DNA of 32,300 nucleotides, taken from IMG/VR virus record IMGVR_UViG_3300034092_003340, positions 1 through 32,300 of that record. The stretch is one strand, 5' to 3'. This document shows, in pieces, positions 1 through 21,679 of the stretch; position 1 is the first letter of the stretch, and every line of letters begins with the position of its first letter. Both the position numbers and the translations under genes were made by a program. Source of the stretch: a virus. The notes below the pieces were generated by a model. It had not been told where the DNA came from. It saw nothing but the letters and a program-made list of their open reading frames with translations, and searched no databases.

Positions 1-896
1 GGGCAGCAAGCATTAATAAACTTGTTGAAGCTGCAGAAAAATTGAGTACACCAAAAGCTTCATACGGAGACGATCGTATTTGGAGCCCAGTAGTTGATAA
101 AGCTGGAAACGGTTATGCCGTGATTCGCTTTTTACCAGCTCTTGAAGGTGAAGATCTGCCATGGGTTCGCTTTTGGGATCATGGTTTTAAGGGACCAACT
201 GGTCGTTGGTACATTGAAAATTCTCTTACCAGTATTGGTCAACCTGACCCGGTAAGTGAGATCAATAGCGTGCTTTGGAACAGCGGCAATGAAAAAGACA
301 AAGAGATTGCTCGCGAGCGTAAGCGTCGTTTACATTATGTCTCTAATATTCTTGTGCTTAGTGACCCAGCAAATCCAGACAACGAAGGTAAAGTTTTCTT
401 GTACAAATATGGCAAGAAAATCTTTGACAAGATTATGGATATTATGCAACCACAGTTTCAAGATGAGACTCCAATCAACCCATTTGATTTTTGGGCCGGT
501 GCAAACTTCAAGTTGAAAATTCGCAACTTTGAAGGCTATCGTAACTATGATAAGTCTGAATTTGAAGGAGCTTCTGAACTTTTCAGCGGAGACGAAGCTA
601 AGCTTGAGAAGACTTACAATTCGTTGTACTCATTAAAGGACTTTATTGATCCTGCAAACTATAAGTCGTATGCAGATCTTAAACGTAAGCTTGTTGAAGT
701 TCTTGGTGCAGAGGCACTTGCCGGTTCTTCTACTGAACCAGAAAGCGTGAATGTCGCTGCTGCTGCAGTTGGAAAAACAGTTGAACAGACTCCAAGTTAT
801 AAAAGTACTGAATCGACATTCTCTGCATCAAGCACAGATGACGATGATGACGATGAGTCGCTTAGCTACTTTGCAAAGCTTGCTCAAGGTGGTTAA
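1..896 (+). CDS. 32: gp32 single-stranded DNA-binding protein (5' truncated by window)
   Basis: This is the T4-type helix-destabilising protein that coats single-stranded DNA in phage replication, recombination and repair. The reading frame is open from base 3, so the true start lies to the left; the TTG at 42 is not needed as a start. The core contains the family patterns GNGYAVIRFLPA, HGFKGPTGRWYIENSL, NILVLSDPANPDNEGKVF and YKYGKKIFDKI. The tail ends in a Ser/Thr-rich stretch, a run of six aspartates and a short SYFAKLAQGG end, which matches the acidic C-terminal arm that contacts partner proteins. No cysteine is visible, so the His-Cys3 zinc site of T4 gp32 is absent. This looks like the cyanophage-type version. 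It is followed by a hairpin terminator. Confidence 0.93.
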   Translation, partial: AASINKLVEAAEKLSTPKASYGDDRIWSPVVDKAGNGYAVIRFLPALEGEDLPWVRFWDHGFKGPTGRWYIENSLTSIGQPDPVSEINSVLWNSGNEKDKEIARERKRRLHYVSNILVLSDPANPDNEGKVFLYKYGKKIFDKIMDIMQPQFQDETPINPFDFWAGANFKLKIRNFEGYRNYDKSEFEGASELFSGDEAKLEKTYNSLYSLKDFIDPANYKSYADLKRKLVEVLGAEALAGSSTEPESVNVAAAAVGKTVEQTPSYKSTESTFSASSTDDDDDDESLSYFAKLAQGG

Positions 897-910
897 TGTT
901 TAAAGATTAG

Positions 911-945
911 AAAAAAACAGGGGACAGAACTTCTGTCCCCTGTTT
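911..945. terminator. Bidirectional hairpin terminator
   Basis: A perfect inverted repeat at 915-945 has 15-base arms (AAACAGGGGACAGAA and its complement) centred on base 930. Rightward it ends gp32, but the T-tract after the stem is weak (TTTGC). Leftward the stem is followed by seven T residues (911-917 on the minus strand), so it reads better as the terminator of the leftward tape-measure operon, whose transcript would then cross the thioredoxin-like gene in antisense. Confidence 0.85.
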
Positions 946-962
946 GCATATATACTACTAAT

Positions 963-1238
963 ATGATCTTTCTAATAAAGGTATTTACATACTTAAATTG
1001 TACTGATTGTTTACGTCATCTAAAAACACTACGTGACTATTGTGAACGCACTCCTACAAGTTTGCAAATAATTGATATTGACAAGGAAGAAAATATACCG
1101 CTTATATTTGAATATAAAATAGATGGCATACCGCACACAATATGCTATAATATACGTGGTGAAATTATGCATAGTTTTCCAGGAGTAAAAACTCCTGAAG
1201 AGTTTGACAATATTGTATATTATCGAACTGCAGATTAA
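963..1238 (+). CDS. Thioredoxin/glutaredoxin-like small redox protein
   Basis: This 91-aa protein has the size of phage thioredoxins such as T4 NrdC. A CxxC pair (C13-T-D-C16) lies after the first beta strand, and a GIPHT segment with a likely cis-proline at P57 sits where thioredoxin folds have theirs. The family reduces disulfides, for example in phage ribonucleotide reductase, but the substrate here is unknown. The ATG is 17 nt after the gp32 hairpin. A degenerate TATATACT (949-956) sits 6 nt before the ATG and could be a promoter, but the match is poor. The 3' end overlaps the convergent tape-measure gene by four bases (1235-1238), so its mRNA may be affected by antisense transcription. 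Confidence 0.72.
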   Translation: MIFLIKVFTYLNCTDCLRHLKTLRDYCERTPTSLQIIDIDKEENIPLIFEYKIDGIPHTICYNIRGEIMHSFPGVKTPEEFDNIVYYRTAD

Positions 1239-2947
1239 TAACCCATTGCACTGCCAGTTAGTATTGGCATCATTTGTGGCATATTATTATTTACATTGCT
1301 GCTACTAATATTATTAGTATTGCCGCCATTATTGTTATTAACAACTATCGTTGGTGCTATATTTGCAACGTTGCCGGCAGTCGCTAGGGTGTTGCCAGTT
1401 GTTAATGGTGTTGCTTTGATGTTTGCTTTCCACTTAAAGTCTGAAGCAGCATACTCATCCCATGAACCATAACCTGCAGCCATTGCCTTTTCAGTTTTGC
1501 TTAGTTCGGTAAAATTATTTGTAGATGTAGCCTTTAATATTTTTTCAGAAGACGTTGCAGCGGTTGCTAATTTTTCTGATGTAGAATTAGTTGATTCTTT
1601 TTCTTTTGGAGAACTGCTGTATGCATACTCATATAAAGAATCTGGTATTGCTAATTTTAAATAATAAGACATTCCTCCTTTTGCCTTTGGATCTGGTAAT
1701 ACTGCTCGTAATACAGCCTTATTAAAATTATTTACAACTTCACTCATATCATCTGAAATAGTTGTTAATGAATCCATTGCCGAAGTAAAAAATACACTAA
1801 TTTTATCAGGTAGTGATGTAAAGAAATCAGTAACCATCATAGGTATTTCACCTATAAATTTACCAATTTCAGCATACATTCCAAACAGTGGATCAATTAT
1901 ATACTTTGAATATAAACCAGTAAAGGAAAAACTATCTAAAAATTTAGAAAATTCTGAAAATCCAAGTTTTTCAGATACCCAAGATATTCCATCTTTTACA
2001 AGATCTAGCAGACCTCCGATTAATCCATCAAATGCACCAACTAAAAACCCCTTTAATCCACCGATTAATCCATCTTTCTTAAAGCCGTCAATTGCACCCA
2101 TAATACCACTTATTATTCCAGTGAGTGCTAAAGTAAATGGACCGCCTAAAAATTTAAATAAACCAGCAAATTTGCTTCCAAGCGTCAAACCAATCTTAAA
2201 AAACCTAAACATCCCGCCAAATATATCCGTAAGAGCAGAAAAGGCGCTTCCTATTATTCCAGATGTAGCTGTTATAGTCTTTAATACTGGTGAATTTCCA
2301 AATATTGAAAAGATTTTACCAAGTAGCATAAAAATTTTACTTGATTTAAATTTATTTAAGAGACCGCCAATCTTTTCTATTACAGTAAATGTTCCTTTAA
2401 ATAAAGGAGAATTTTTTAAACTTAATACAATGCCAGTAAAAAATTTGCTAACTGTAGAAAAAACACTAGATATTTTTTGAAATAGTTTTGCATTTTTTAG
2501 TGCAGCAAATATTGGAGACGTGAGCTGAGATATAAATCCTGTTACAAATCCACCCATTAATGCAGCCACAGACAGCAATCCCCCAAATATTCCGCCTGGC
2601 ATTTCAAATTTAGTTGTTTTAACACCACTCTTAGTCTTTTCTGGTTTTAACTTTCCAAGTGCGTCAAGCAATTCATCACGATTTTCACGCTCTTGTAATT
2701 TGTTGCCTTCTAATCGCTTTGCTAACACTACATTAGATCGTATTAATACATCAAATTTGCCTTTTAAATCGCCTGCTATGCCTACTAATTTATCTAAAAA
2801 AGTAGGAACATCTGTCGTATTTTCTTTAGCAACATTTGATGCAAGTGTAAAATCATAGTTATCGATTGTATCAAGAATAAGATCTTGAGACAAATTAGAA
2901 CTTTGTAATTCTTTTACAACCTGGGCTAGTGACGATTCTGCGGTCAT
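1235..2947 (-). CDS. 29: Tail tape measure protein, gp29-like
   Basis: This 570-aa protein is close to the 590 aa of T4 gp29, which sets tail tube length and sits in the baseplate hub. The N-terminal 110 residues are helical and charged. Residues about 115-345 are glycine- and phenylalanine-rich with repeated hydrophobic helices of the kind seen in tape measures. The C-terminus is Asn/Thr-rich and low complexity. Position supports the call: it follows gp26 and its frameshifted extension, as tape measures follow tail-assembly chaperones in other phages. Its ATG overlaps the TGA of the extension (ATGA), which suggests translational coupling. The hydrophobic region could suggest a membrane protein, but length and context favour a tape measure. 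Confidence 0.72.
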   Translation of the reverse strand: MTAESSLAQVVKELQSSNLSQDLILDTIDNYDFTLASNVAKENTTDVPTFLDKLVGIAGDLKGKFDVLIRSNVVLAKRLEGNKLQERENRDELLDALGKLKPEKTKSGVKTTKFEMPGGIFGGLLSVAALMGGFVTGFISQLTSPIFAALKNAKLFQKISSVFSTVSKFFTGIVLSLKNSPLFKGTFTVIEKIGGLLNKFKSSKIFMLLGKIFSIFGNSPVLKTITATSGIIGSAFSALTDIFGGMFRFFKIGLTLGSKFAGLFKFLGGPFTLALTGIISGIMGAIDGFKKDGLIGGLKGFLVGAFDGLIGGLLDLVKDGISWVSEKLGFSEFSKFLDSFSFTGLYSKYIIDPLFGMYAEIGKFIGEIPMMVTDFFTSLPDKISVFFTSAMDSLTTISDDMSEVVNNFNKAVLRAVLPDPKAKGGMSYYLKLAIPDSLYEYAYSSSPKEKESTNSTSEKLATAATSSEKILKATSTNNFTELSKTEKAMAAGYGSWDEYAASDFKWKANIKATPLTTGNTLATAGNVANIAPTIVVNNNNGGNTNNISSSNVNNNMPQMMPILTGSAMGY

Positions 2948-3824
2948 TTTTTACGTTTTTCTTCTTCTTCTCTTATGTGTTTTATTAGCATTGCAATATA
3001 AATTTCCCTCTCCCATGGTATCATTGTATCTAATTCAGTTAAACTATATTTGTGATGCTGCATTAATGCAAAATTTGTTTGATAATAGTTAGACAACGAT
3101 TCATGCGAGAGGGCTATTCGAAAAAAGCTTGTGTGCCTACAAGTGTAATATCATTGTCAGTCTTACAACCAGTACAATTAAATTTTACACTATGTTGTAG
3201 TTTAGGAGAGTTTGATATATACTCTTCAATTTTATTAAGTTGAGCTCGGCTTAAGCTGTTAACAAATGTTAGCAACTCTTCGCGAGACGACTGTGCTGAG
3301 GGATACACTCCACTGTCATCAAAGATTGAATCAATTGAAGCAATAAGCATATTTGTTATTGTGTCCATATCAACTTCAGATGTGCTTATAATCGTTGACA
3401 TATCATTTACACGTATATGTCTTAGAACCACACCAATTTTATCAGTTAACATAATTTTGTTGCTAATTTCTTTAACTGGCCACGTTACTTCAATATCATC
3501 AATATTAACAGACACCTCGTTGTAAGTTTCACAATGATCGCACTTACATTTGATATTGCTAACTTCACCTACGCTCTTTGCTCGTAACTTTAAGAAAATA
3601 TACTCTAAGTCAAACGAAGTCAAATCGTTTGGGTCAACGACACCGAATGTACAGGCTCGTATAATGTCTTTAATCGCGGACATCATTTCTGATGAGCTGT
3701 TTGACTCCTGTGCGAGCAGCAATATTTTTTCTTCCTTTACAAGAAAAGGACGATATTCAATTGACTGTGATGTAGATGGTACAGTCAATACATATTTTGG
3801 GGATTCTAGGATTGGTAATGGCAT
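2944..3824 (-). CDS. gp26 -1 frameshift product with gp51-like/tail-chaperone extension (predicted)
   Basis: Slippage by -1 at 3120-3126 would join residues 1-235 of gp26 to a 58-residue frame ending at TGA 2946-2944, giving 293 aa. The extension begins RIALSHESLSNYYQTNF, continues with LMQHHKYSLTELDTMIPWER and ends in a charged EEEEKRKK tail. The central Leu-Thr-Glu-Leu-Asp then Pro-Trp-Glu-Arg pattern resembles small proteins coded just before phage tape measures. The frame has no ATG before residue 20 of the extension, so independent initiation would lose its conserved-looking start. Lambda G/GT and P2 E/E' make tail-assembly chaperones in this way. T4 codes gp26 and gp51 separately. The frameshift is inferred from sequence only. 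Confidence 0.72.
3114..3824 (-). CDS. 26: gp26-like baseplate hub assembly protein
   Basis: This 236-aa protein belongs to the T4 gp26-type baseplate family (T4 gp26 is 208 aa), which acts in assembly of the central hub. It opens with MPLPILESPKYVLTVPSTSQ and has an all-alpha middle part. Two cysteine clusters, C93-x-C95-xx-C98 and C217-xx-C220, look like a zinc site. The last codons are GCT TTT TTC GAA TAG, and the slippery run lies four codons from the stop. An AATAAATA element (3835-3842, minus strand) lies 10 nt before the ATG, in the short gap after the tube-like gene, so this gene may have its own late promoter. Confidence 0.75.
   Translation of the reverse strand: MPLPILESPKYVLTVPSTSQSIEYRPFLVKEEKILLLAQESNSSSEMMSAIKDIIRACTFGVVDPNDLTSFDLEYIFLKLRAKSVGEVSNIKCKCDHCETYNEVSVNIDDIEVTWPVKEISNKIMLTDKIGVVLRHIRVNDMSTIISTSEVDMDTITNMLIASIDSIFDDSGVYPSAQSSREELLTFVNSLSRAQLNKIEEYISNSPKLQHSVKFNCTGCKTDNDITLVGTQAFFE
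3120..3126 (-). other. -1 programmed ribosomal frameshift site T TTT TTC
   Basis: In the gp26 frame the codons read GCT TTT TTC GAA TAG, so the heptamer T_TTT_TTC fits the X_XXY_YYZ rule exactly. The next codon after a -1 slip is CGA at 3120-3118, and the frame stays open to 2944. A 5-bp hairpin (CTTGT/ACAAG, about 3129-3144) lies just upstream of the heptamer on the minus strand, with an AGG in its loop that could act as an internal Shine-Dalgarno-like stimulator. No clear downstream stem or pseudoknot was seen by eye. Confidence 0.75.
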
Positions 3825-3834
3825 AATATAATGT

Positions 3835-3842
3835 TATTTATT
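3835..3842 (-). promoter_or_regulatory. Putative late promoter AATAAATA before gp26
   Basis: The minus strand reads AATAAATA, one base from the T4 late consensus TATAAATA. It ends 10 nt before the gp26 ATG and lies in the short gap after the upstream stop codon. The predicted leader is about 5 nt. Confidence 0.45.
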
Positions 3843-3848
3843 GTTTAA

Positions 3849-4376
3849 TTATTTCTTAATATCTAATTTATCATACGTAAATACTACAGATATTTTTTGT
3901 ATTGTTGATTCAGCATTATTATCTAGTTCAATAGAATTCAAAGTTATTGGATATGCGTTTTGCAATTTAACATTTTGAATTTCTTTGTCATTTTCGTTTA
4001 GCTGCGTAATAGTAATATCAGTCTTGTAAGTTTGGTGATCTTTAGCGAGTAGATAGGAATCAATGTTTATTATTTTTTTCATCCATTCATCTATCGCCTT
4101 TTTAATGGCGTTATTATTAGTTGAAATAAATGTCATTGTTACATCATCTTCAATATAACCAGTTGGTATTTTTAATGGACGACGAGTGCCTATATCATAG
4201 TCTAATGTTGTAATTTGTTTTCCAGGTATATTAACAGACTCACATAAAAATGAAATATCCCTTGATACAGATGATGAACCCGGTAAACTAGCAAATGTTA
4301 CTGAAAATCTATTTGGACGCGCTAAGCCCCCATTTCGCATTATTGCGGATTTAAAATCATTTATTGAAGATGACAT
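3849..4376 (-). CDS. Tail-tube-fold protein, gp54/gp19 family
   Basis: This 175-aa protein has the size of T4 gp19 tail tube (163 aa). Its N-terminal GGLARPNRFSVTFASLP, the CESVNIPGKQITTLD segment and the C-terminal ISVVFTYDKLD are typical of gp19-like tube proteins. It lies in an operon with gp4, gp26 and the tape measure rather than next to a sheath gene. That makes a baseplate-tube initiator (gp54-like) or a second tube paralogue at least as likely as the main tube subunit. It starts 3 nt after the upstream stop and has no promoter or Shine-Dalgarno of its own, so it is probably co-transcribed with the upstream gene. Confidence 0.6.
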   Translation of the reverse strand: MSSSINDFKSAIMRNGGLARPNRFSVTFASLPGSSSVSRDISFLCESVNIPGKQITTLDYDIGTRRPLKIPTGYIEDDVTMTFISTNNNAIKKAIDEWMKKIINIDSYLLAKDHQTYKTDITITQLNENDKEIQNVKLQNAYPITLNSIELDNNAESTIQKISVVFTYDKLDIKK

Positions 4377-4379
4377 AGT

Positions 4380-4964
4380 TTAGATTAGTGTGCGTGTTTT
4401 TTGCCAGATTGAGGCATTCTTTTGACCAACGAAAGAATCAGTTGGTAGAAAAAGTGCAGTTTCCCATTCCTTTGGAAGCACCTCAACAGTTTTAGAAGTG
4501 ATGTGTGCATACAAATAGTGTTTAAAACATGGAGCGTATGCACGCAATTTTGATGTGCCATTTAGTAAATCATATGATAGTTTAAACCGTGTAGTTTCAT
4601 CTAATTTATTGTTGTTCATATAATCCATCAAGCGATCAAAAAATATTGCGCGTTGACGAGGTGGAAGATAGTGTAGATTCAATCCATAGAATCCTTTTTT
4701 TGCTGGGCCTACCATGAGTATAAGTGGAAATCTATCATAATACGGCAGCGTCTCTTTGTATTTTGGATCATATAAAAACATAAACATACGACCAATAAGA
4801 GGTTTATTTCTTACTGTCAATGAGTCGTCGTTTAATACTTTCGATGGAGATACATTTGTAAGTGTACGTATTTTACGATAAAACCATTCTCTGGATTCTT
4901 TTGTACGAGGCAAGAATCCAGTTTTTTCTGCATCAGACTGAATTTTAGAAAAAAGAGACGGCAT
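4380..4964 (-). CDS. Conserved T4-like structural/assembly protein, possibly gp2-like DNA end protector
   Basis: This 194-aa protein has a conserved-looking core: GRMFMFLYDPKYKETLPYYD, then RFPLILMVGPAKKGFYGLNL, then HYLPPRQRAIFFDRLMDY. It ends with a PKEWETALFLPTDSF segment. From memory, cyanophage homologues of this pattern are annotated as DNA end protector. In T4, gene 2 lies next to gene 4, and this gene is directly downstream of gp4, which fits. T4 gp2 is longer (274 aa), so the identity is tentative. Gene 2 of T4 protects the packaged DNA ends from host RecBCD. A perfect late promoter octamer sits 5 nt before the ATG. Confidence 0.5.
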   Translation of the reverse strand: MPSLFSKIQSDAEKTGFLPRTKESREWFYRKIRTLTNVSPSKVLNDDSLTVRNKPLIGRMFMFLYDPKYKETLPYYDRFPLILMVGPAKKGFYGLNLHYLPPRQRAIFFDRLMDYMNNNKLDETTRFKLSYDLLNGTSKLRAYAPCFKHYLYAHITSKTVEVLPKEWETALFLPTDSFVGQKNASIWQKTRTLI

Positions 4965-4969
4965 ATATC

Positions 4970-4977
4970 TATTTATA
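4970..4977 (-). promoter_or_regulatory. T4-type late promoter TATAAATA, 5 nt from ATG
   Basis: The minus strand carries a perfect TATAAATA followed by a 5-nt spacer and the ATG at 4964. In T4 the octamer occupies about -13 to -6, so the predicted first transcribed base is the A of the ATG or within a base or two of it. Confidence 0.7.
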
Positions 4978-4985
4978 ATGTAGAT

Positions 4986-5441
4986 TTATGTCAATAATTT
5001 TATACCAAGTCCCTTTATGGTATCTTCTGTCCAGATGGCAAAAATCCAACCACGATCTGCACAATACTCGTTTGCAGCTGACCATTTGGATTGATTTTTT
5101 ACATATGTAAGCACTTCAGTAATATATGCTTTCGTTTTTCGGGTACGCACCTTTGGTTCTTGAGTTTGTTTCTTTGGCTTTATCTCAATGAGATATGTTT
5201 GACCAGACTTAAATTGTATTTTTAAGTCTACAAAATACCGGTGTAATTTATTATCAGTTTTACATCGATAGGGCACAATTGTTTCTTCACTGCTCCATTT
5301 CACAACGTTAGCATTCTCATCACACCATTTAAATACTTGACGTTCCCAAAGTGATCGGTAACATATTGCAGTATAGTCACCGTCATATTTTCCTGGATGT
5401 ATTGGCCGATACTTACCACTATAATACTGCCCACGTTTCAT
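4986..5441 (-). CDS. 4: gp4 head completion protein
   Basis: This 151-aa protein matches T4 gp4 (also called gp50/gp65, about 150 aa), which completes filled heads before tail joining. The start at 5441 (MKRGQYYSGKYRPIHPGKYD) aligns with the family start; an in-frame ATG at 5531 would add 30 residues without family resemblance. Conserved segments include YRSLWERQVFKWCDEN, VVKWSSEETIVPY and YFVDLKIQFKSGQTYLIEIK. D72 with E86-I-K88 forms a PD-(D/E)xK nuclease-like triad, with E33 upstream, as noted for this family. A 7/8 late promoter (TATAAGTA) lies 5 nt before the ATG. Only 12 bp separate it from the divergent gp48-like gene. Confidence 0.85.
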   Translation of the reverse strand: MKRGQYYSGKYRPIHPGKYDGDYTAICYRSLWERQVFKWCDENANVVKWSSEETIVPYRCKTDNKLHRYFVDLKIQFKSGQTYLIEIKPKKQTQEPKVRTRKTKAYITEVLTYVKNQSKWSAANEYCADRGWIFAIWTEDTIKGLGIKLLT

Positions 5442-5448
5442 ATAAATA
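5441..5448 (+). promoter_or_regulatory. Late promoter TATAAATA of the gp48-like operon, 5 nt from ATG
   Basis: A perfect TATAAATA ends 5 nt before the ATG at 5454. Its first base is the A/T pair of the gp4 start codon on the other strand. It is the left half of an 18-bp near-palindrome (5439-5456). Confidence 0.75.
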
Positions 5449-5454
5449 CTTATA
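5447..5454 (-). promoter_or_regulatory. Divergent late promoter TATAAGTA of gp4, 5 nt from ATG
   Basis: The minus strand reads TATAAGTA, 7 of 8 matches to the late consensus, ending 5 nt before the gp4 ATG at 5441. It overlaps the plus-strand promoter by two bases and the start codon of the divergent gene by one. Confidence 0.55.
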
Positions 5455-6179
5455 TGGCACTTAATTTTCCAGAAGACGCAAACACAAGTCGTCCATACGT
5501 GTTTTTTCAGTGCACCGCACGAAACAGCCAAGTTATAGCACTGCCGATTCCAGGATCGCTACAGTTTAGTGATGGTGCTACATACAACAATACTGAGCTC
5601 GGATTTTTAGGGGGTAGTTTAGCTAATATTGCATCAACAGTATCTACTCAGGGCCTTAGTGGTGAATCAGTAAAAACTGCACTGGCTAATGAATTTTTAA
5701 ATAAAAAATCTGAATATAGTGGAGCATCGATAGGTACTTTAGTACAAGGGATAACTACAATGACTGGAGCAAATGAAGGTCTTCAAAGCGCAATAAGTAT
5801 AGGCACTGGAACAACGGTAAATAAAAATATAACAACTGAATTTACATCTACAAATACACGCGTATTTTCATTTCAGTTTCAACTCATACCACGAACATCT
5901 AGTGAAAGTACTAAAATAAAAAATATAGTAAAGACCTTTAGAGAAGGATTATATCCAGAATCAATTGGTTTTCAATTAAAATATCCCCCAAAATGGAAAA
6001 TAAGATTTCCACAAAACAGCCATTTACCAAAGATTGGAGAGACATATTTAACTGAAGTAAATACTACATACAATGGATCTACAAATATGTGGAGAGATGA
6101 CGGTTCGCCACTTGAAACAACTATACAAGTGTCCTTTATGGAAACAAAGGCGTATACATACGACACAATACCTAAATAA
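5454..6179 (+). CDS. 48: Baseplate tail-tube cap protein, gp48-like
   Basis: This 241-aa protein is probably the junction between the baseplate and the tail tube. The C-terminal half holds the telling pattern FSFQFQLIPRTSSESTKIKN, then FREGLYPE, YPPKWKIRF, the GETYLTEVNTTYNGSTNMW segment, and ETTIQVSFMETKAYTYDTIP, as in cyanophage gp48/gp54-like proteins. The start at 5454 (MALNFPEDANTSRPYVFFQC) is chosen over an upstream in-frame ATG at 5397, which lies inside gp4. The promoter position agrees. T4 gp48 is longer (364 aa), so gp54 is the alternative. It is the first gene of the rightward baseplate operon. Confidence 0.6.
   Translation: MALNFPEDANTSRPYVFFQCTARNSQVIALPIPGSLQFSDGATYNNTELGFLGGSLANIASTVSTQGLSGESVKTALANEFLNKKSEYSGASIGTLVQGITTMTGANEGLQSAISIGTGTTVNKNITTEFTSTNTRVFSFQFQLIPRTSSESTKIKNIVKTFREGLYPESIGFQLKYPPKWKIRFPQNSHLPKIGETYLTEVNTTYNGSTNMWRDDGSPLETTIQVSFMETKAYTYDTIPK
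6171..6178 (+). promoter_or_regulatory. Weak late-promoter-like CCTAAATA before gp53
   Basis: CCTAAATA matches the late consensus at 6 of 8 positions and lies 4 nt before the gp53 ATG. It is formed by the last codons and stop of the upstream gene (CCT AAA TAA), so it may be chance. Confidence 0.25.
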
Positions 6180-6182
6180 TAT

Positions 6183-7172
6183 ATGCCAAACTTTTTTGCA
6201 AAATATCCAAAAGTAAATTATGACCTGGTTTCTGATGGGTCTATATTTGAATTAACTGATATCTCTCGTTCTGTAGTATTAAACACAAATAAGATACAGG
6301 ACGATAATGCGCTCTACACATACTATGAAATAGAAGACGGAGAAAGACCCGATATAGTATCACATAAATTATATGATGATGTACAATATTATTGGACATT
6401 TTTTATAATAAATAATTTTTTACGTGACGGTTACGCGTCATCTTGGCCGCTATCTTATAGAAATTTTACAAAGATGATTGAGAGTGAATATGGTAAATAT
6501 TCTGCACTATCAATTGTCCCTGTTGTTGATCCAGCAGTTGATCTAAATGGCCGAGGTAAACTAGACATGTCATGCATACCGCTTGATGAAAAATATTTGC
6601 CATACTTAAAATTTGTTTCTCAAGATCGTGAGTATCGTTCAAGCATAGCGCAGTATGACAGCGGTCGCCAACAATTAGTCGTATATGATTGTCATAAAGT
6701 TAATATCACTGGCACAAGAATAGAAATATCTAGAGAAGCATTTATAGAAAATAGCAATCTTAGTTATACAATTGCGTGTGATGACACAATGCCAGCTGAA
6801 TTAAAGACAGAATGGATAAATTTAGTTTATACACAAATTTTAAAATATGATCCAGTTGGATATGCCGAACATATTGAAGCAAATACACCCCCAGAACAAT
6901 ATGTTTCTAATAAAACATTAAAAGTTGCATCAATAGAATACCGATGGAGCAACTATGTCAATGCTGCATATGAATATGTTGATCCAATTGGCGTCATACG
7001 TTCTGCATATGATATTTTAACTGACGAGAATGTAGTTATTCCAAAATACAAATCATTTTATGAGTATGAAAATGAAATAAACGAAAGTAAACGAGTTATA
7101 CAAGTCATACGCCCAGATTTTATCTCTGATTTTGCAGACGAATATTTTAATGTTTTAAATGATACTCTTTGA
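6183..7172 (+). CDS. 53: gp53 baseplate wedge protein
   Basis: This 329-aa protein carries the gp53 N-terminal domain: YYEIEDGERPDIVSHKLYDD followed by VQYYWTFFIINNFLRDG, a LysM-like fold in this family. T4 gp53 (196 aa) joins wedges to the hub. The C-terminal 150 residues are an extension not present in T4, with tyrosine-rich segments (YRWSNYVNAAYEYVDPIG). Gene order gp4, gp48-like, gp53 recalls the T4 arrangement, where gene 53 is close to gene 4. It begins 3 nt after the upstream stop. The gp53 stop (7170-7172) lies 2 nt before the ATG of the next gene. Confidence 0.82.
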   Translation: MPNFFAKYPKVNYDLVSDGSIFELTDISRSVVLNTNKIQDDNALYTYYEIEDGERPDIVSHKLYDDVQYYWTFFIINNFLRDGYASSWPLSYRNFTKMIESEYGKYSALSIVPVVDPAVDLNGRGKLDMSCIPLDEKYLPYLKFVSQDREYRSSIAQYDSGRQQLVVYDCHKVNITGTRIEISREAFIENSNLSYTIACDDTMPAELKTEWINLVYTQILKYDPVGYAEHIEANTPPEQYVSNKTLKVASIEYRWSNYVNAAYEYVDPIGVIRSAYDILTDENVVIPKYKSFYEYENEINESKRVIQVIRPDFISDFADEYFNVLNDTL

Positions 7173-13515: not shown

Positions 13516-13523
13516 TATAAATA
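13516..13523 (+). promoter_or_regulatory. Late promoter TATAAATA of the gp25-gp6-gp7 unit, 5 nt from ATG
   Basis: A perfect TATAAATA ends 5 nt before the gp25 ATG at 13529. The 45-nt gap after the 803-aa gene contains no other obvious element. Confidence 0.7.
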
Positions 13524-13960: not shown

Positions 13961-15828
13961 TGGAAATTCCAACACAATCAGTAAATGTTACAGAATTAGA
14001 TTTTGATCAAATCAAGGCTAATCTAATAGAATATTTCAAGGCTGGAGACAGTCCATTTAAAGACTGGGATTATGCTGGGTCTGGATTAAATATGTTGCTT
14101 GATGTGCTCTCGCATAACACACATTACAATGCATTACTCGCGCACATGGCAGTCAATGAAAGTTTTATTGATACTGCGCAGTTACGACAAAACGTGGTGT
14201 CTGCCGCAAAGTTAATTGGATATACCCCACGCAGTTATGCCTCTGCAAAGGCACAAATAAACGTAACTGTAACGCCAAGAAATACATTATTAAATGAATA
14301 TGTTTTTCCAGTGGGTTCAACTTTTTCATCAAATATAACAGACCTTTCAAAAAGTCAAACCTATAAATTTACAAATTTAAATGATATTGTCTGCACAAAA
14401 AATTCTAGTGGAGACTTGGTAGCAAATAACATTGACATATATCAAGGTACATTCATTAAAAAGAGAATTCAAATAAATTCTACACAAAGTAATAACGAAT
14501 ATATTATAGACGATAAAAATATTGATACAAGCACGTTAAAAGTAGCGGTATATCAGACTGGACGATCAGAAATTAACGAAGTATATTCTTTATTTACAGA
14601 TATTAATAGTGTTGATGATACAACCCCAATTTATTTCTTATACGAAAACTATAATGGCAACTATGTAATATCATTTGGTGATGGTATATTTGGCAAAAAA
14701 CCAGATAACTTAAACGTTTTAGAGTTAACATATTTGGTTACTGATGGCACTGGCGCAAACTCTTCAAATATTTTTTCATACTCTGATTTTTTTGATTCAA
14801 CTCAACTAACTCGAGTTAGTTTAAATACAGTTGCACGTGCGGTTGGCGGGTCAGATCGTGAGTCTATTAGTAGTATAAAATATAACGCGCCACTTCAATA
14901 TGTTTCACAAAATCGTGCAGTGACTGCTGATGACTACAAAACATTGGTGCATAGTTATTTAACAAATGTAAAATCCGTAGCTGTGTGGGGAGGCGAAGAT
15001 AATGATCCACCACAATATGGTAAAGTTTTTATATCTGCAAAAAAATCGGATTCTTCATCAGTTTTAATGCCAAATGAAAAACAAGGATTGCTGACATATT
15101 TAAGTGATAAAAAAGTACTCTCAATATTTCCTGAAATAGTTGATCCTGAATATGTTGATATTGTGCTTGATGTACTCTTTAAGTATAACCGTAACCTGAC
15201 TACGCACACAAAAACACAACTTGAAACAAAGGTTAAAGAAAGCATAGACACATTTAATAGTCAATATTTGGAATCTTTTGATGGTGTGTTTCGTCATTCA
15301 TTTTTATCAAAGACTGTTGATGGAACAAGTCCTGCAATATTAAATTCACTTATACGAGTGTTTATCTCTAAAAGTTTTACACTAGTTAGTGGACAACCAG
15401 AAAAAATAACAATAAAATTTGGTACATCATTAACAGTTGATGATAATATTGCCATTGTAAATTCTACTGGTTGGGATTATGATGGAGTTACATATTATAT
15501 TGGTGAGGAAGCACATCCAACACTGTCTGACATACGCTTGCTGTATGTCTATTATTATGATGCCAATGATAAACCAATTATTCGTAATAAAAATGTTGGT
15601 ACGCTTACACTGAGTACTGGAGTAATGGAAATAGAACCGCTACTCGCTGACACTAACACCACAATGATAATAGACGTAATACCACTATCAAATGACCTTG
15701 CACCTAAACGCAATCAACTTATGCGCATTGATACAACACGCCTAAATGTTTATGGCGAAGTTGACCTAATTGCCGTTGGTGGTTCAAATCGTTCAGTGCA
15801 ATATAATACATTTAGTAGAGACCGTTAA
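13960..15828 (+). CDS. 6: gp6 baseplate wedge protein
   Basis: This 622-aa protein matches T4 gp6 (660 aa), a member of the gpJ-like family whose dimers form the ring that links the baseplate wedges. The N-terminus has the family pattern FKDWDYAGSGLNMLLDVLSH, then NTHYNALLAHMAVNESFIDT, and AKLIGYTPRSYASAKA. The region YENYNGNYVISFGDGIFGKK and the RAVTADDYKTLVHSYL motif near residue 325 are also typical. It starts inside the gp25 stop codon, so translation is probably coupled. Order gp25, gp6, gp7 fits the inner wedge. Confidence 0.9.
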   Translation: MEIPTQSVNVTELDFDQIKANLIEYFKAGDSPFKDWDYAGSGLNMLLDVLSHNTHYNALLAHMAVNESFIDTAQLRQNVVSAAKLIGYTPRSYASAKAQINVTVTPRNTLLNEYVFPVGSTFSSNITDLSKSQTYKFTNLNDIVCTKNSSGDLVANNIDIYQGTFIKKRIQINSTQSNNEYIIDDKNIDTSTLKVAVYQTGRSEINEVYSLFTDINSVDDTTPIYFLYENYNGNYVISFGDGIFGKKPDNLNVLELTYLVTDGTGANSSNIFSYSDFFDSTQLTRVSLNTVARAVGGSDRESISSIKYNAPLQYVSQNRAVTADDYKTLVHSYLTNVKSVAVWGGEDNDPPQYGKVFISAKKSDSSSVLMPNEKQGLLTYLSDKKVLSIFPEIVDPEYVDIVLDVLFKYNRNLTTHTKTQLETKVKESIDTFNSQYLESFDGVFRHSFLSKTVDGTSPAILNSLIRVFISKSFTLVSGQPEKITIKFGTSLTVDDNIAIVNSTGWDYDGVTYYIGEEAHPTLSDIRLLYVYYYDANDKPIIRNKNVGTLTLSTGVMEIEPLLADTNTTMIIDVIPLSNDLAPKRNQLMRIDTTRLNVYGEVDLIAVGGSNRSVQYNTFSRDR

Positions 15829-15830
15829 GT

Positions 15831-18314
15831 ATGCTTTTAAGTATAGCAAATTCGCGCCCGCGTAATATAGAATCGATACAAACCGAAAGTTTGTATCCAG
15901 ATTCTTTAAAAGAGTCTGCGAGCAATCTTATCAATTTTATTGAGCGCTATTATGAGCACCTAAATCGTACTGGTTTGCCGTCAAATGAAATTGCTGCCAT
16001 TACTCGCGAAAAAGATATTGATATTGTATCCGATAAATATCTAACCCAAATACAAAGCCTAATTGCACGCAATATTCCAAATTCGCGTGTGCTTGATAAA
16101 GTCACTCTCTATCGCGTTATTATACAATATTATCATACACGCGGTTCGGAAGACAGCATACACACATTTTTCAAACTTTTCTTTGACGAAATTGTAAGCA
16201 TATTTTACCCTAAAAATTACCTATTTGACTTGTCAGGCGGCAGCGGTCGTTGGGCCCCAATTGACATACCATCATTACGTACATCACGCACAAACCCAAA
16301 TAAAAATACACTATTAGTAGTTTCTGACTATAGGATTGGACCATTTCCAAGTTCAAATCCCGGACCGTATACTGTTACGTTAAGTGCTTTTTCAGAAGAT
16401 CTTTGGACTTATGGCGGAGTAGAAAAGTCATTTAATCTGCCATATATACAAAAAGTTAATGTTGCCACTGAAGGAGCAGATCCTGTTTATCGTTGGGTCT
16501 ATCGCTATAAGGATGAATTTGAGTTATACAGCACAAATGACACGCCTTGGCCAGATGAAGCAACTTGGGACGTCTTTGCGCGTAACATTGAATATGTTAA
16601 TTTTATATCATCAACAAGTTTGTTAGAGAGTGGAGCATACAATCTTTATGAGGATGGACTCCCTGTTTTATTTGAATCTGCCGAAGATGATGGTATAATA
16701 GACATACAAAATATAGAGTATAGTAGGTTAACTATAACTCCTATAGTTCCATCTACAGACACCGAAGAAATACTTGATGAGTCTGGTAAAGTTTTAGTTG
16801 ATGAGTCTATTACAAACAACGAAATAATTACTGAAAAAATAATTACTCTTGGTGATGATAGTATAGACATTTCAGTTTTTGGTTTAGAGACTGAAAAGGG
16901 CACGGCAGACTATATATTAACTCAAAAAGGACTGCCTCCTGAAGACAATGGTATTGTCACAGAAGCTGCGGGCGGCTCAACATATGCAGTTGACACTTCA
17001 AATGTCGAGTATGCTCATGCATTTAGCGTAACGGCAAGCCCAGAATATACATCTAAAATTGGTGACCTTATACATTCATTAGAAGATGCACCAACCCCAA
17101 CAATTTATCGCTGTGAAGACCTGGATCCAATTCTATGGAGTGTAATTCCAAGTGATGAAGATGTATGGACATATTCTGATAACAAATCATTTGCTTCTAA
17201 TCTATATAAGTTGCATGACGGTTATTATTGGCAAAATTATTCATATGAAATTAAAAGTGAGTTACCATATGATGAGTGGGGTGATGATTATTTGCGGTTT
17301 GTACACCCTTCTGGGTTAAAACTATTTAGTGCTATAATCTTTGAATTTATTGCTCGTAGTGAATGGTACAATGTCATTGACTATGTCGTTCGCAAACCGC
17401 AGGAAAGTTATTTATGGCTAAATGCATATCATCCTCCAGTACTCGGCTATCATAGCCCTCGTAGTCAACCAGGTTGGTTAACAGCAAACGAAAGACTGCT
17501 AACAATTATACTTACAAGACTGCTAGATCGCAACGCGCCAGAGTCTCTAGTACGTATGGTTCAACTTGCCCTTCGCGTATTTGCAATTAATGCCAATTAT
17601 AGAGACAAGGTAGTCTATGAAGACTATCAACGTTGGATAAAATTCTTTGATCCAAACGAACTAGTCTCTGGCTTTTCACACAAGACTATTGCTCAGGCAA
17701 GTGCGCCATACACACCAAATGCTGATCGACTGTTTAGTAATATATCAAGTTTTATAACAGTTAAAGCACCCGATCTTTCATACTATCCATGGTTTTATAG
17801 TGAATTAATTCCACTTGATCCAACATATGAAGACACGGACCCAGAATATGATGAAGCAGTCGTCGAATCTTTTGATATAACTATGGAAGCCTATATGAAT
17901 AGTACTCTTGAAGACAAAGAGGCATTGATATATAGATATCCATTTGTTTCTCAAGATTCTGACACAGTTTTAACAGAAAATGAGAACTCCACATTTATAT
18001 CTGAAGGACAGATGAATACGCAGTCTGCTACAATCACACCAAATAAATTTACTGCGGCTGAAGGTCAGTCTGTACGATTCTATGTAAACACTGCATTTGT
18101 GCCAGATGAAACGATGCTCTATTATACCATAACTGGAAATGATGTAGTGTCTTCAAGCGGTAGTTTTATAATTAAAAATAATTCTGGTTTTTTTAGAATT
18201 GTACCAAGCTTAACTGTAAATGCACAAACACCAACATTTACGGTTTCAATACGAAAAGGCGCAGTTAATGGTCCAATACTTGTTACAAGCGCGGTAATAA
18301 CTATAACAGTATAA
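15831..18314 (+). CDS. 7: gp7 baseplate wedge protein
   Basis: This 827-aa protein is the likely gp7 wedge subunit (T4 gp7 is 1032 aa), which joins the inner wedge to gp8 and gp10. Cyanophage-like patterns near the start include LINFIERYYEHLNRTGLPSN, the LIARNIPNSRVLDKVTLYR segment, and YYHTRGSEDSIHTFFKLFFD. Acidic Glu/Asp-rich segments occur near residues 280-370. The C-terminal 90 residues form a separate beta domain (SATITPNKFTAAEGQSVRFY and later). It starts 2 nt after gp6. Its stop codon lies inside the TATAAATA promoter of the next gene. Confidence 0.75.
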   Translation: MLLSIANSRPRNIESIQTESLYPDSLKESASNLINFIERYYEHLNRTGLPSNEIAAITREKDIDIVSDKYLTQIQSLIARNIPNSRVLDKVTLYRVIIQYYHTRGSEDSIHTFFKLFFDEIVSIFYPKNYLFDLSGGSGRWAPIDIPSLRTSRTNPNKNTLLVVSDYRIGPFPSSNPGPYTVTLSAFSEDLWTYGGVEKSFNLPYIQKVNVATEGADPVYRWVYRYKDEFELYSTNDTPWPDEATWDVFARNIEYVNFISSTSLLESGAYNLYEDGLPVLFESAEDDGIIDIQNIEYSRLTITPIVPSTDTEEILDESGKVLVDESITNNEIITEKIITLGDDSIDISVFGLETEKGTADYILTQKGLPPEDNGIVTEAAGGSTYAVDTSNVEYAHAFSVTASPEYTSKIGDLIHSLEDAPTPTIYRCEDLDPILWSVIPSDEDVWTYSDNKSFASNLYKLHDGYYWQNYSYEIKSELPYDEWGDDYLRFVHPSGLKLFSAIIFEFIARSEWYNVIDYVVRKPQESYLWLNAYHPPVLGYHSPRSQPGWLTANERLLTIILTRLLDRNAPESLVRMVQLALRVFAINANYRDKVVYEDYQRWIKFFDPNELVSGFSHKTIAQASAPYTPNADRLFSNISSFITVKAPDLSYYPWFYSELIPLDPTYEDTDPEYDEAVVESFDITMEAYMNSTLEDKEALIYRYPFVSQDSDTVLTENENSTFISEGQMNTQSATITPNKFTAAEGQSVRFYVNTAFVPDETMLYYTITGNDVVSSSGSFIIKNNSGFFRIVPSLTVNAQTPTFTVSIRKGAVNGPILVTSAVITITV

Positions 18315-18317
18315 ATA
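18310..18317 (+). promoter_or_regulatory. Late promoter TATAAATA of fibre gene 1, 6 nt from ATG
   Basis: A perfect octamer ends 6 nt before the ATG at 18324 and includes the TAA stop codon of gp7 (18312-18314). It separates the baseplate wedge genes from the fibre cassette. Confidence 0.7.
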
Positions 18318-19359: not shown

Positions 19360-20238
19360 ATGTTATTTTCTGCAGTTAAAAGAAAGCGTCGGCGACGTAA
19401 TGGAGGATCAAACGCATGGGCTTTCATTCCACAGGGGGCCTTCACGATGGGGGACTCGTTGGATGGCACACAGAATGCTCCAATTCGCACAGTGACCTTG
19501 GATGCTTTCTATATGGGCAAATATGAAGTGACAAGGGGCGAATGGAATGAAGTACGTACTTGGGGATTAACCAATGGATATACAGATTTAGCTTCAGAAA
19601 TTCCGATGGCTCCATCTATGGGGTTCGGCGCAGCTAGCAATCACCCTATTGGTTATGTCACTTGGTTTGATGCTGTAAAATGGTGTAATGCACGTAGTCA
19701 AAAGGAAGGACTTATTCCAATTTACTACACTGATATCGCTCAGACAACAGTCTACAAGACTGGAAGTACAAATCTACCTAGCACGCATGTAAAATGGGAT
19801 GCTAATGGTTACAGGCTTCCGACTGAGGCTGAATGGGAAAAAGCAGCGAGAGGAGGACTAAACGGAAAAAGATATCCGTTAGGTGATACTATTACACAAG
19901 TTGAAGCAAATTATATGAATTTTACCGGGCAAGGCGGGGCAGATCGGCCGAATACTACTGCAGTAGGAACCTTTCCACCAAACAGCTATGGATTATATGA
20001 TATGGCAGGTAATATTAGTGAGTTGTGTTGGGATTATTATGCAGAAAGTTATAACCCAACCGATCTGACTAATCCACGTGGACCAACTTCAGGTATAAAC
20101 TTTAACAGCAGAGTAGTTCGAGGCGGTAGTTGGGCTTCGACAAACACGACAGATGTAGGAGTAGCACTTAGAAATGGTGGCGGTCAACCAGGATCTTCAA
20201 ACGCGACCGGTTTCCGAGTTGTTCGCAACATAATATAA
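19360..20238 (+). CDS. FGE-sulfatase/C-type-lectin-fold protein, likely adhesin
   Basis: This 292-aa protein has an FGE-sulfatase domain (residues about 18-292). Signature segments are AFIPQGAFTMGDS, FYMGKYEVTRGEW, YRLPTEAEWEKAARGG (151-166), NSYGLYDMAGNISELC (208-223), VVRGGSW (252-258) and GFRVVR (284-289). The two catalytic cysteines of formylglycine-generating enzymes are absent: the segment after GGSW reads ASTNTTDVGVALRN. Binding rather than catalysis is therefore likely. The same fold is used as a variable adhesin in phage Mtd-like and DGR-diversified proteins. The first 16 residues are very basic (KRKRRRRNGG). G runs near the start look richer in G+C than the neighbours, which hints at transfer. 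It starts 1 nt after fibre 1. Confidence 0.82.
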   Translation: MLFSAVKRKRRRRNGGSNAWAFIPQGAFTMGDSLDGTQNAPIRTVTLDAFYMGKYEVTRGEWNEVRTWGLTNGYTDLASEIPMAPSMGFGAASNHPIGYVTWFDAVKWCNARSQKEGLIPIYYTDIAQTTVYKTGSTNLPSTHVKWDANGYRLPTEAEWEKAARGGLNGKRYPLGDTITQVEANYMNFTGQGGADRPNTTAVGTFPPNSYGLYDMAGNISELCWDYYAESYNPTDLTNPRGPTSGINFNSRVVRGGSWASTNTTDVGVALRNGGGQPGSSNATGFRVVRNII

Positions 20239-20243
20239 TTCTA

Positions 20244-20251
20244 TATAAATA
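20244..20251 (+). promoter_or_regulatory. Late promoter TATAAATA of fibre gene 2, 6 nt from ATG
   Basis: A perfect octamer lies in the 19-nt gap between the FGE-like gene and fibre 2 and ends 6 nt before the ATG at 20258. Confidence 0.7.
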
Positions 20252-20257
20252 TCGTAT

Positions 20258-21673
20258 ATGGCTACCATAAAAATTTCACAGTTAAGCGAACTAACAGCTG
20301 ACACAGATGTAACGTCAAATGACCTCTTACAAATAATTAATATTGAGCAGACTTCGTCAACATATCCAACTGGTACAAATCGTAAAATTAAAGCAAGCAC
20401 ACTTGCAAATGGACTCTCTCGACTGTCGACAACCATACCACAAGTTATACAAGATGAACTAGACAGCAAAGTATCACTTGAAAACTTTAATAGTGCCGGT
20501 TTAAAAATTGCAATTCCAGTTGTTGCTGCATCTCCTGGAATCAATTTTACACTATCAAACATAACTCCGTCGTCTAGTATGGATGGAGTGACCCTTGCAT
20601 CTGGCAATCGTGTACTCCTAAAAGATCAAAGCGCACCTGCTCAAAATGGAATCTATGTTGTTCAGACAACAGGGTCCCCACTTCGTGCCACAGACTTTAA
20701 TGAGGTAATAGAGATTAATGATGGTTATGTACTTGTAGATGGTGGCAATACTCTTAAAGGCAGTTCATGGGTTGTAACGAGTGATGTCGCTGTAGTTGGC
20801 ACTGATCCAATAGTCTTTACCCAATTTTCTTCTGCTATAAGTGGACTATCAAAGTCAGCAGTTGGACTAGGTAATGTTGATAATACAAGTGATCTTAATA
20901 AACCAATATCTACAGACACTGCGACTGCATTAAACCTTAAAGCAAATATTTTAAATCCAACATTCTCTGGAACAGTAGGCGGCATTACAAAGAGCATGGT
21001 TGGACTTGGTAATGTTGATAATACAAGTGATCTTAATAAACCAATATCTACAGACACTGCGACTGCATTAAACCTTAAAGCAAATCTTGCAAGCCCAATA
21101 TTCTCTGGAAATGTAGCACTACCAAGTACAACTACTGTTGGTGGCACTACAATTAGCTTTGTTCCAGCGGGAGCAGTTATGGCTTTTGCTATGGGTAGTG
21201 CACCGGCAGGTTGGCTATGGGCTAATGGTCAGGCAGTCGACCGAGCAGGGGCTTCTGGTTATCCAGCACTTTTTGCAGCTATTGGCACGACATATGGCGC
21301 AGGAAATAATAGTACAACTTTCAATCTACCTGATTTGAGGGGGTATTTCGTTCGTGCTTGGGGAACTAATGGTGATGGTACAACAACTGGTGCATTTGGC
21401 GCAAAACAAAGTCAAATGTTCCAAGACCACACTCACAATGGTTATACAGATGTTCAAGGGAATCATACTCACACATATACTGAACCAAGATATGATAAGG
21501 TTGATGCAGGGAGTGATGGAACTAAAGTAGCGCAGGTTCAAACTGGAACAACTAGTGCTTCGGGGGCGCACTCTCACAATGTATATACACATGGAGTTAA
21601 TGCCGGATGGTGGACAGCGGGTGGTGAAACCCGCCCAGCAAACATCGCAATGCTGTATTGCATAAAATTCTAA
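20258..21673 (+). CDS. Tail fibre protein 2 with phage tail collar domain
   Basis: This 471-aa protein shares its N-terminal anchor (MATIKISQLSELTADTDVTS then NDLLQIINIEQ) with the neighbouring fibres. Residues about 113-185 are a fibre module seen in many phages (ASGNRVLLKDQSAPAQNGIY). Two near-identical 46-residue units (GLGNVDNTSDLNKPISTDTA) follow. From about residue 302 comes a tail collar domain: PAGAVMAFAMGSAPAGWLWA, then FNLPDLRGYFVRAWG, with H-x-H pairs in DHTHNG (390-395), NHTHTY and AHSHN, and it ends ETRPANIAMLYCIKF. Collar domains occur in T4 gp12 short tail fibres, where such histidines bind metal. It may be a short-tail-fibre equivalent. Confidence 0.8.
   Translation: MATIKISQLSELTADTDVTSNDLLQIINIEQTSSTYPTGTNRKIKASTLANGLSRLSTTIPQVIQDELDSKVSLENFNSAGLKIAIPVVAASPGINFTLSNITPSSSMDGVTLASGNRVLLKDQSAPAQNGIYVVQTTGSPLRATDFNEVIEINDGYVLVDGGNTLKGSSWVVTSDVAVVGTDPIVFTQFSSAISGLSKSAVGLGNVDNTSDLNKPISTDTATALNLKANILNPTFSGTVGGITKSMVGLGNVDNTSDLNKPISTDTATALNLKANLASPIFSGNVALPSTTTVGGTTISFVPAGAVMAFAMGSAPAGWLWANGQAVDRAGASGYPALFAAIGTTYGAGNNSTTFNLPDLRGYFVRAWGTNGDGTTTGAFGAKQSQMFQDHTHNGYTDVQGNHTHTYTEPRYDKVDAGSDGTKVAQVQTGTTSASGAHSHNVYTHGVNAGWWTAGGETRPANIAMLYCIKF
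20861..21085 (+). repeat. Two 87-bp near-identical direct repeats (period 138 bp)
   Basis: The copies at 20861-20947 and 20999-21085 differ at one visible position (GGACTAG versus GGACTTG). They encode the GLGNVDNTSDLNKPIST unit of fibre 2. Nucleotide identity also at third codon positions points to recent duplication or gene conversion rather than selection on protein alone. Confidence 0.85.
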
Positions 21674-21679
21674 TAAATA
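21672..21679 (+). promoter_or_regulatory. Putative late promoter AATAAATA of fibre gene 3, 6 nt from ATG
   Basis: AATAAATA (7 of 8) begins within the stop codon of fibre 2 and ends 6 nt before the ATG at 21686, the same spacing as for the two other paralogous fibre genes. Confidence 0.6.

Follow-up and report, generated by a model that had tools for sequence, protein, structure and literature searches.

The 18-bp module CATATAAATACTTATATG, at positions 5439-5456 on both strands of the 32,300-nt stretch of viral DNA analysed here (the window: positions 1 to 32,300 of IMG/VR record IMGVR_UViG_3300034092_003340), is probably a bidirectional T4-type late promoter, with gp55-dependent starts at the A of each of its two divergent AUGs and leaderless mRNAs for both gp4 and gp48. 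What is unusual in it is the placement of the octamers, 5-6 nt before start codons, rather than their number. The window itself encodes structural and replication genes typical of the T4 superfamily (Kyanoviridae-like), with PHROG matches for gp4, gp48, gp2, gp53, gp25-like and gp32.

The module, which is kept in relatives, combines two start codons with two overlapping late octamers. On the plus strand, the exact octamer TATAAATA (5441-5448) stands 5 nt before the ATG of gp48 and, on the minus strand, TATAAGTA (5447-5454), one base from the consensus, stands 5 nt before the ATG of gp4; the gap between the two genes is 12 bp, the opposite-strand octamers share 2 bp, and the first base of each octamer is the first base of the opposite gene's ATG. 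Sequence and coordinates thus agree with the first-pass annotation, which had described an 18-bp near-palindrome with these spacers and this overlap, each octamer reaching into the other gene's start codon. The module differs from its own reverse complement at 2 of 18 positions. Searched for at up to three mismatches, it is matched twice in the window (by itself, on both strands) against a mean of 0.15 in shuffled sequence, and since two matches were reached in only 2 of 100 shuffles, such a near-palindrome is improbable by chance. The octamers themselves are not enriched in the window, with 7 copies of TATAAATA against 5.7 expected and 2 of TATAAGTA against 2.7.

The two genes bear the names first given to them. 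The gp4-like head closure protein (151 aa; 4986-5441, minus strand; phrog_218, E 5e-57) heads a minus-strand operon in which PHROG matches place gp2 next (DNA end protector; 4380-4964, minus strand, ATG at 4964; phrog_429), followed by a tail-tube-like gene and a baseplate-hub gene, whilst the gp48-like baseplate tail-tube cap (241 aa; 5454-6179, plus strand; phrog_230, E 3e-32) heads the plus-strand operon. In Pfam, the gp4 frame also hits the TnsA-like endonuclease N-terminal domain (PF08722, E 8e-18), and gp48 is short here, whereas frames that follow this 18-mer elsewhere (e.g., locus L136) reach as much as 380 aa. Further along the window, 19360-20238, amid tail-fibre genes, bears a by-eye likeness to formylglycine-generating-enzyme/SUMF1-type proteins. 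An in-frame ATG does exist upstream of gp48, at 5397 within gp4, and the alternative gp4 start at 5531, which had been taken for an ATG, is a TTG. Even so, gp4 and gp48 likely start at the ATGs at 5441 and 5454, because in many of the 59 distinct junctions gathered from relatives, reading upstream, a stop codon is reached before any other in-frame start (38 of 59 for gp48 and 42 of 59 for gp4), and because the match to the gp4 profile starts at profile position 2 with residue 5, numbering from the ATG at 5441.

T4 late octamers occupy -13 to -6 relative to the start site (PMC1524935), and the first octamer base is likewise numbered -13 in PMC2988020. With a spacer of 5 nt, this register would make the A of the AUG the +1 position of gp4 and gp48 alike, at 5454 for gp48 and at 5441 for gp4, with a predicted leader of 0 nt in each case. 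We infer these exact start sites from the T4 register; translation from a 5′-terminal AUG and mutual exclusion are inferences too. Each gp55-dependent promoter would then initiate at the first base of the start codon it serves, and both gp4 and gp48 would be translated from an AUG at the very end of their mRNAs. The apparent paradox raised by the first-pass annotation, that the gap leaves no room for a leader unless transcription starts in the opposite gene, disappears because the mRNAs would be leaderless: the T4 register would put the starts on the AUGs, and octamer-to-ATG offsets of 5-9 nt are usual in this phage.

Indeed, the spacing of 5-9 nt between octamer and ATG is a property of the phage as a whole, beyond the one junction. 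An ORF start follows five of the seven TATAAATA sites in the window by 5-6 nt; besides gp48 these are gp2 (4970-4977, minus strand, 5 nt before ATG 4964, which matches the leaderless geometry), the gp25-like baseplate wedge gene (13516-13523, plus strand, 5 nt before ATG 13529) and the genes starting at ATG 18324 (18310-18317, plus strand, 6 nt) and ATG 20258 (20244-20251, plus strand, 6 nt), the other two sites having no such start. Variant octamers add two cases, gp4 itself (TATAAGTA, offset 5) and ATG 21686 (AATAAATA at 21672-21679, plus strand, offset 6). The same placement was examined over 57 kb of G001, a 174-kb IMG/VR record and near-identical relative whose gp4 and gp48 proteins are identical to those of the window, by counting ATGs of ORFs of at least 50 aa downstream of the octamer, with 55 letter permutations of the octamer as control. 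ORF starts lie at offsets of 5-9 nt for 18 of 28 TATAAATA sites compared to 39 of 607 permuted-octamer sites (0.47 expected), where the T4 register would predict leaders of 0-4 nt, and at offsets of 5-6 nt for 10 of 28 compared to 13 of 607 (0.19 expected). In 47 kb of T4, none of 17 TATAAATA sites has an ORF start at 5-9 nt, hence none at 5-6 nt, the offsets there peaking at 26-28 nt. The pelagiphage HTVC008M has 3 of 10 TATAAATA sites at 5-6 nt, and of its 18 NATAAATA sites 5 lie at exactly 5 nt before an ORF start, that of gp2 among them.

Leaderless mRNAs are expected to do without Shine-Dalgarno sites, and cores of this kind precede only 1 of 22 genes in the window and 3 of 44 ORFs in G001, as opposed to 26 of 39 in T4. 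Other phages are in between, with 13 of 23 genes in HTVC008M, 7 of 16 in Melnitz, 7 of 17 in C48C1 and 5 of 17 in Syn9, all of these counts being made on hand-picked gene lists. Leaderless use would not be universal in the family, since at gaps of 42-55 bp the leaders predicted for most distinct junctions are 14-40 nt long.

The best surviving of the alternatives, albeit an unlikely one, is that the octamers are real but minor, gp4 and gp48 being expressed mainly from longer RNAs that begin inside the opposite gene and carry an internal non-Shine-Dalgarno ribosome site. Non-Shine-Dalgarno initiation is known in other bacteria (PMC6847099), and sigma-70-like matches are present in the neighbourhood. 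These matches, however, are at chance level (22 vs 19.9), none of the heptamers ATAAATA, ATAACTA and ATAAGTA occurs on the plus strand of the window at 1-5441 or on the minus strand at 5454-6760, and a leader beginning within the opposite gene was rejected on both strands on these grounds. Moreover, the 5-9 nt offset recurs across the genome, non-divergent genes included.

Promoter function on both strands is also what the relatives point to. Relatives of gp4 and gp48 were gathered by protein similarity and by motif scan. In all, 146 sequences, counting the window itself and two reference phages, gave a junction with gp4 and gp48 in divergent orientation, and 59 of these junctions are distinct; 7 of the 117 loci found by protein yielded no junction, and where an ATG lay nearer, as it did in four junctions, the next one in frame was taken. 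Octamers are present on both strands in 56 of the 59 distinct junctions (57 for gp48, 58 for gp4), counting as octamers four one-base variants (ATAAGTA, ATAACTA, ATAATTA, ATACATA) that were picked after the junctions were seen; in strict counts, gp48 has TATAAATA in 57 of 59 and gp4 has NATAAATA in 34 of 59. Together with the late regulators encoded by G001 (see below), this supports the first-pass proposal of two overlapping divergent T4-type late promoters. The joint conservation that it proposed to look for in related phages is seen for the two octamers, whilst the gap ranges from 12 to 55 bp and is exactly 12 bp in 16 of 59 distinct junctions. Among finds by protein similarity alone the gap is 12 bp in 11 of 50, including L049 and L059, where the nearest ATG gives a gap of 6 bp and the next one 12 bp, and which are classed as leadered in the tree analysis below. 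Five of the 16 distinct 12-bp junctions (L136, L151, L153, L199, L233) come from the motif scan only and speak for existence and not frequency. The same holds for every 12-bp row whose gp4 is less than 50% identical. In junctions with gaps of 42-52 bp and long leaders (e.g., L115, L245, L249, L064, L070, L079), the gp4 start codon still has a gp48-strand TATAAATA directly against it (CATATAAATA), so that the overlap between octamer and opposite start persists though space does not demand it.

The 16 distinct 12-bp junctions are not equally strict on both strands. The gp48 octamer is TATAAATA in all of them, whilst the gp4 octamer is TATAAGTA in 12, TATAACTA in one, TATAATTA in one, TATACATA in two and the consensus in none. 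It could therefore be argued that the promoter works for gp48 only, the gp4 octamer having decayed and gp4 being expressed in some other way, and the absence of a consensus gp4 octamer from all 16 is what speaks for it. Against it, the gp4 octamer keeps 7 of its 8 bases even where gp4 is down to 44% identity with that of the window (the rows below 50% being found via motif scan), and no other upstream promoter candidate stands out, which makes this explanation quite improbable. If both promoters work, a consensus octamer for gp48 facing a one-off octamer for gp4 suggests a standing bias toward gp48 rather than an even balance. Departure from the consensus might also leave the gp4 octamer with little or no activity. 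That the arrangement balances head and tail gene expression, as was first supposed, is doubtful on this account, and head versus tail is not a clean description in any case, because the minus-strand operon headed by gp4 also holds tail genes (tail-tube-like and baseplate-hub).

The idea that only one polymerase could occupy the junction at a time fares better. The T4 late open complex is melted from -12 to +2 (PMC7892883), and on this footing the melted bases would be 5442-5455 for gp48 and 5440-5453 for gp4. As these two stretches almost coincide, only one open complex should form at a time, and the early claim is sound as an extrapolation from the T4 complex. The T4 gp4|gp53 promoters, with octamers 7 bp apart, would exclude each other as well; what would be new here is the leaderless compaction rather than the exclusion.

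A strong dyad in a strongly conserved module could also mean that the near-palindrome is chiefly an operator, another protein-binding site or a cruciform, its likeness to promoters being secondary. The dyad needs no such function, since symmetry is bound to result when a 12-bp gap holds divergent octamers that each leave 5 nt to their own ATG, and the compact dyad vanishes as the gap widens, whereas both octamers remain. Nor does the junction favour the perfect palindrome CATATAAATATTTATATG, which is found in none of the 16 distinct 12-bp junctions and was rejected as a functional form at gp4|gp48. Palindromes of this kind can exist outside leaderless late promoters, which speaks for an operator: a motif scan of IMG/VR, whose figures are for the matches listed and whose pattern analysis covers 120 loci, gave at least 37 sites with CATATAAATATTTATATG, of which 21 have ORFs on both sides and, among the matches listed, none has gp4|gp48. 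In these 21 loci none of the 18 other TATAAATA sites is at an offset of 5-9 nt, and the perfect palindromes were set aside as instances of the same device. On the whole, we regard an operator or similar site as very unlikely to be the main role of the module.

The perfect palindrome is seen between other divergent gene pairs, with RuvC-like or HNH genes beside unknowns, in L142, L154, L176, L178, L133 and others; 2 of 10 flanking proteins examined matched PHROGs (RuvC-like, HNH), and a gp55-like gene is present in 4 of 10 large records examined. The exact 18-mer of the window occurs at a minimum of 36 sites in IMG/VR. Among the 36 listed, a relative of gp4 lies on the side expected in 32 cases and in no case is the order reversed, gp48 being confirmed opposite gp4 in 31 of those 32.

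Chance matching in AT-rich intergenic sequence, which the window octamer counts at shuffle expectation might suggest, is hardly credible, because the signal is in positions and not in counts and because over the 16 distinct 12-bp junctions the mean information content of the 12 bases that separate the ATGs is 1.86 bits (a value inflated by the five motif-ascertained rows) compared to 0.1-1.2 bits (gp4) and 0.2-1.7 bits (gp48) at the third codon positions flanking them.

The bidirectional late promoter proposed here has a clear counterpart in T4, where a head-completion gene is likewise divergent from a baseplate gene (gp4|gp53), with back-to-back octamers. Because T4 genes 4 and 53 diverge and each is preceded by TATAAATA on its own strand, back-to-back late promoters beside gp4 appear to be an old plan. 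The T4 version differs in its gap of 47 bp and its octamer-to-ATG distances of 26 and 28 nt, which leave room for ribosome sites, as opposed to the 12-bp gap, the octamer overlap, the predicted leaderless mRNAs and the missing Shine-Dalgarno sites of the window junction. The cyanophage, pelagiphage and OM43-phage relatives Syn9, HTVC008M, Melnitz and C48C1 have in common with the window a T4-like gp4/gp48/gp2 neighbourhood; gp4 and gp48 are divergent in Syn9, Melnitz and C48C1, with gaps of 37-55 bp unlike here, and co-directional in HTVC008M. The 12-bp arrangement looks like a compaction of the older T4-superfamily plan. The degree of compaction changes over the gp4 tree: among 21 compact, 16 half and 24 leadered rows, the compact label takes at least 8 changes, 5 of which are forced by well-supported branches, and a single gp4 clade for the exact 18-mer is rejected (p-AU 1.2e-5, for a group defined once the motif had been seen and with distant rows ascertained by motif). 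The presence of the 18-mer in separate gp4 lineages implies either long retention or repeated origin.

The regulators that this reading calls for are encoded by the relative G001, as they are by T4, which shares the octamer: gp55 (E 1e-50), gp33 (E 3e-23) and gp45 (E 2e-8, over the curated cut-off). They were not found in the 32-kb window, itself a fragment; gp33 is present in 6 of 6 records searched, and gp55 together with gp45 in 2 of 6, the remaining records being shorter fragments. As to the host, psbA was not found in any of 6 records searched, a gp4 search of a genome contig collection returned no relative, and a DNA-level search of a phage collection returned short patches only.

ARAGORN places 19 tRNA genes at 8135-16785 of L129 (about 19.1-27.8 kb of G001), where a group I intron is also found (15686-15874, minus strand). 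A tRNA-Met(CAT) at L129 13536-13615 on the minus strand has an acceptor stem opening with a C1-A72 mismatch, which is a mark of bacterial initiator tRNA. By eye it has no GGG/CCC anticodon stem, it is not among the Rfam tRNA matches, and it has a partial DNA match in the relative G005, where ARAGORN calls no tRNA-Met. A phage initiator-like tRNA would fit leaderless translation. G005 also carries a tmRNA gene (L261, 1571-1890, minus strand; ARAGORN tag GKNTLALAA), and Melnitz is annotated with a tmRNA as well.

Leaderless expression has precedents, the lambda cI mRNA made from PRM being one. Bacterial and phage leaderless mRNAs, with mycobacterial, corynebacterial and archaeal cases too, have a 5′-terminal AUG and no Shine-Dalgarno site, just as predicted here; unlike them, the form predicted here would be tied to a phage-coded late sigma factor and recurrent across late genes. 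Our literature searches, which covered open PMC papers, returned no report of leaderless late transcripts, pervasive or otherwise, in T4-like phages. It is tempting to go further and propose that, among the T4-like phages, one lineage infecting aquatic bacteria switched its late programme to leaderless mRNAs, with Shine-Dalgarno sites lost, octamers pulled to 5-9 nt before starts genome-wide, two promoters and two starts fused into the 18-bp gp4|gp48 module, the exact 18-mer arising in separate gp4 lineages by convergence or surviving there by long retention, and a phage initiator-like tRNA perhaps assisting; we hold this wider scenario to have an even chance of being right.

T4 late transcription is a textbook system, in which transcripts have leaders and mostly Shine-Dalgarno sites. 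Whatever the outcome for the wider scenario, the junction offers a minimal bidirectional promoter for testing whether two polymerases exclude each other. If a sister group does start its late transcripts at the AUG, a phage can couple its own sigma factor directly to the choice of start codon; octamers could then be used to call gene starts in such phages, and the annotation of start codons and operons would be altered in many uncultured aquatic phages.
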